A stretch of DNA of 64,000 nucleotides from an uncultured Bacteroidales bacterium (GTDB lineage Bacteria; Bacteroidota; Bacteroidia; Bacteroidales; Barnesiellaceae). This document shows positions 6,151-6,186 of this stretch, one piece after another. Numbering within the stretch: position 1 is the first letter of the stretch; the number at the start of each line of letters is the position of its first letter. The notes below the pieces were generated by a model. It saw only the letters and a program-made list of their open reading frames with translations. It was not told where the DNA came from and made no database searches. The DNA lies in the NCBI GenBank assembly GCA_949298955.1, contig CASFYQ010000002.1, positions 186,001 through 250,000 of the forward strand. The letters run 5' to 3'. The translations under genes were made by a program, and so were the position numbers.

Positions 6151-6186
6151 AGCTTTACCTCTATTATCAGTATTACATTTTATCCA

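Follow-up and report, generated by a model that had tools for sequence, protein, structure and literature searches.

The genome studied here, that of a gut bacterium belonging to Barnesiella or a very close genus, comprises 2.54 Mb in 30 contigs, and the window, the whole stretch of DNA that was analysed, is the 64-kb segment C2:186001–250000. Close to its left edge, on the minus strand, lies the upstream half of a complex I operon, consisting of nuoA as first gene of the unit (9508..9858; an open reading frame whose NCBIfam NuoA matches fall short of the curated cut-offs), nuoB (8933..9517; NCBIfam NuoB above cut-off), a nuoCD fusion (7296..8918; NCBIfam NuoC and NuoD matches across a single open reading frame) and nuoH (6187..7263; one NCBIfam NuoH model above cut-off), the C-terminus of which ends as in contiguous relatives. 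The original prediction that these four genes are intact and in order was confirmed, as was its observation that atpD starts 36 bp past the nuoH stop, with no terminator-like hairpin in the gap (6151..6186) and no convincing promoter. atpD (beta; 4639..6150; TIGR01039 above cut-off) opens an ATP synthase operon that continues on the same strand with atpC (epsilon, ~77 aa; 4391..4624; the frame that follows atpD, matched by tblastn in relatives), atpB (subunit a; 3292..4371; TIGR01131 above cut-off), atpE (subunit c; 3009..3263), atpF (subunit b; 2502..2999; TIGR01144 above cut-off), atpH (delta; 1953..2495; TIGR01145 above cut-off), atpA (alpha; 374..1951) and atpG (gamma; 5′ part at 1..370), with atpE and atpA assigned from their open reading frames and conserved operon positions. 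The left edge of the window cuts atpG, which as a whole gene occupies 9490–10371 of the extracted locus (L005) and ends at C2:185489.

A genome search found all six of nuoI-J-K-L-M-N, claimed at first to be absent, at C2:179199–185394 (L005:3200–9395), directly after atpG, just outside the window and on the same strand. They seemed to be missing because the window edge cuts the locus inside atpG. The atpG stop and the nuoI start are separated by 94 bp that contain a terminator-like hairpin. The full order on one strand is thus nuoA-B-CD-H, atpD-C-B-E-F-H-A-G, nuoI-J-K-L-M-N, with an intact ATP synthase operon holding all eight F-type subunit genes between nuoH and nuoI. The earlier idea of a rearrangement that had left nuoI–N elsewhere holds for the rearrangement and fails for the location, as it is the ATP synthase operon that appears to have been inserted, with nuoI–N directly behind it.

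All of the nuo subunits A, B, C, D, H, I, J, K, L, M and N are present, with C and D fused. The NuoF C-terminal domain (PF10589), NuoF being the only subunit of the NADH module searched for, had no match within the locus, in the rest of the studied genome or in five other genomes with the nested order, which suggests an 11-subunit-type operon without the NADH module. The nuo operon of Bacteroides fragilis 638R similarly has ten genes from nuoA to nuoN and no nuoEFG (PMC7002350), but its consecutive locus tags, BF638R_0850–0841, imply that no atp genes lie inside it, in contrast to the studied genome.

We assessed how widely the nested order occurs among relatives. In 8/8 congeners examined nuoH was followed by atpD, and the seven that were read through were all nested, one of them on a single 3.08-Mb contig. 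The order was recovered through nuoI, and mostly through nuoN, in those seven congeners and in six further families (f22, f61, f89, f26, f69 and f29), and two of the nested genomes are single contigs (G001 and G265; 3.08 and 3.44 Mb). A NuoH search returned atpD after nuoH in 77 of 80 named loci, some of which end before atpG, including Barnesiella, Duncaniella muris, Paramuribaculum, ‘Amulumruptor’ and many Muribaculaceae bins. The remaining three, Butyricimonas, Sanguibacteroides and Odoribacter, had uninterrupted nuo genes. Odoribacter-type genomes (locus L143; genomes G114 and G296) share the nuo gene order of the studied genome but have nuoI directly after nuoH, and in G114 the atp genes do not lie within nuo but form a separate unit on the opposite strand, at a distance of ~23 kb. 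One ‘Amulumruptor’ genome (G241; loci L053, L054 and L127) retains nuoI behind atpG while nuoJ–N lie ~1 Mb away, and is a derived exception in which the nested unit was broken a second time.

Junction lengths were compared across nested loci. The nuoH-atpD gap ranged from 6 to 161 bp (median 45.5, 102 loci) and the atpG-nuoI gap had a median of 67.5 bp, falling to just 6–17 bp in family f29. Matches to a Bacteroidales-type promoter consensus scored above simple shuffles in 32% of nested loci before nuoA, compared to 3% before atpD and 2% before nuoI. In the studied genome no promoter match before nuoA did better than chance, which counts against the explanation that we favor below. Terminator-like hairpins, defined as a hairpin followed by T with a folding energy of −9 kcal/mol or lower, occurred in 11 of 74 nested atpG/nuoI gaps vs. 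none of 402 other gaps, among them 102 nuoH/atpD gaps; that 63 of the 74 lacked a strong hairpin likewise weighs against our favored explanation. No strong hairpin was seen in the atpG/nuoI gap of Duncaniella muris. The hairpin of the studied genome, GGGAGCTTGG-AGAG-CCAAGCTCTTTTT, lies in a stretch that folds with a z of −3.9, and was found by folding; generic promoter and terminator scans, in which nothing stood out clearly against shuffles, did not report it. Across eight Barnesiella genomes, the final 54 nt before nuoI (L005:9396–9449) had a mean identity of 90%, and the neighboring part of the gap with the hairpin 61%. A second hairpin, of 14 pairs, was observed 50–80 nt before nuoA (window 9909–9940, minus strand; z of −3.6 for a 102-nt stretch); the eight Barnesiella genomes retain it, with one or more compensating changes, and it may be either a leader element or the terminator of something upstream. 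A search of L005:8300–14001 against Rfam returned no matches.

The locus as a whole is probably best explained by a single old insertion of the atp operon between nuoH and nuoI, combined with a shared transcript on which a hairpin reduces read-through. Its anatomy, with one strand, short gaps and a nuoH/atpD junction without a terminator, fits a transcript shared by complex I and ATP synthase. Transcription would start before nuoA and read through nuoA–H into atpD–G, placing part of complex I and the ATP synthase on one mRNA, and nuoI–N would be reached by read-through past atpG. In Barnesiella and some other lineages the hairpin after atpG, perhaps a relic of the atp operon’s own terminator, would reduce read-through into nuoI–N.

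Alternatively, the operons may be nested but separately transcribed, with separate promoters for atpD and nuoI, each located in the gap or gene just before, so that nesting would reflect shared ancestry only. ATP synthase expression is usually steadier than that of complex I, which would suit such independence, as would the hairpin ahead of nuoI in the studied genome and the report that B. fragilis nuo is poorly expressed in rich medium (PMC7002350). We nevertheless consider separate transcription rather unlikely, given that the promoter consensus shows no excess before atpD or nuoI, that nuoH/atpD gaps carry no terminator-like hairpin and that only 6–17 bp separate atpG and nuoI in f29. A stronger version of the shared-transcript explanation, in which nesting is functional because nuoA–H and atp on one transcript, with a lineage-specific terminator before nuoI separately setting the supply of NuoI–N, tune the ratio of the two machines, is a tentative proposal that we judge to be improbable to a similar degree.

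Codon usage in the first nine genomes hinted at a match between nuo and atp genes in nested loci. Across 29 genomes the difference between nested and non-nested genomes was not significant (nuoCD/H, p = 0.32; nuoL–N, p = 0.68), so codon usage gave no evidence that nesting had altered the expression of complex I, which again counts against the explanation preferred here. Nested genomes differed only in a narrower spread of nuoL–N values (p = 0.003), a comparison chosen once the data had been seen and confounded by ancestry because nesting arose once, and we gave it no weight.

The origin of the nesting was assessed from quick-search, midpoint-rooted gene trees. In the tree of NuoB, NuoCD, NuoH and NuoI, built from 30 nested and 32 contiguous loci, a single branch (SH-aLRT 100) set all nested loci apart, and in the AtpD tree they likewise shared one branch (support 94), with Odoribacter-type AtpD as their nearest separate relatives. 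Because nested loci share one branch in both trees, one rearrangement suffices for all of them as judged from these phylogenies. In contiguous relatives the nuoH-nuoI gap spans −4 to 33 bp, and both genes appear to have intact ends in the nested genomes. The published order of the ATP synthase genes in Bacteroides and Prevotella, beta-epsilon-a-c-b-delta-alpha-gamma (PMC5709465), is also that of the nested block, which argues that a complete operon was moved; there it is described as a stand-alone unit, while here it is flanked by nuo genes. An intact atp operon would thus have moved once, between nuoH and nuoI, in a bacterium ancestral to Barnesiella, Muribaculaceae and several other Bacteroidales families, and would have stayed in the nuo gap since. 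Horizontal transfer of the nested locus among families, in place of descent, would be compatible with the several unresolved branches within the nested group of the AtpD tree, and descent was judged here from the nuo and AtpD gene trees; yet both trees recover the main nested groups and neither places a nested sequence among the non-nested ones, such that horizontal spread is not favored and is, in our estimate, very improbable. Misassembly and loss or relocation of nuoI–N, raised in the original prediction and suggested by nothing other than the window edge, were rejected and have a negligible probability, as nuoI–N sit directly after atpG and the order recurs in independent genomes and assemblies, the single-contig G001 and G265 among them.

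The arrangement is already known in kind. In its passages on the complex I locus, the study of Ormerod et al. 2016 on family S24-7 (Muribaculaceae) describes an F-type ATP synthase integrated within that locus, and a complex I without NuoEFG (PMC4936053). The placement of atp within nuo is common to the S24-7 and the studied locus, but those passages describe it for that family alone and make no claim of one mRNA spanning the two junctions, whereas we found the arrangement in Barnesiella and other families. Besides that paper, a literature search that left most subscription journals outside its coverage found no report of the arrangement for Barnesiella or other families. Junctions in Barnesiella and Muribaculaceae loci are identical in kind and the loci share a common branch in two trees, which suggests that the studied locus descends from the same rearrangement as that of S24-7. 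What is new is that the arrangement reaches Barnesiella and other families, that a single origin is inferred for it, that its junctions are placed exactly and that a terminator-like hairpin before nuoI varies between lineages. The feature known from Muribaculaceae thus proves to be older and to belong to a broader set of gut Bacteroidales, and the false lead of a broken or lost complex I is removed. Linkage would also explain a simultaneous loss of complex I and ATP synthase, as in one S24-7 genome reported to be without both (PMC4936053). Natural variants, namely loci with and without the hairpin before nuoI and the genome with nuoJ–N moved, suit tests of joint complex I and ATP synthase production.

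Genes of a Na+-pumping NADH:quinone reductase lie ~7 kb from nuoA on the opposite strand (window 16970–22848, plus strand), where nqrA, nqrB and nqrF were identified and the intervening open reading frames fit nqrC–E; nqrA is also within ~11 kb of nuoH in genomes G001 and G006. Between nqr and nuo (window 12031–16352, minus strand) are genes resembling PstS, from a family match, and ExbB/ExbD/TonB, judged by eye from translations.
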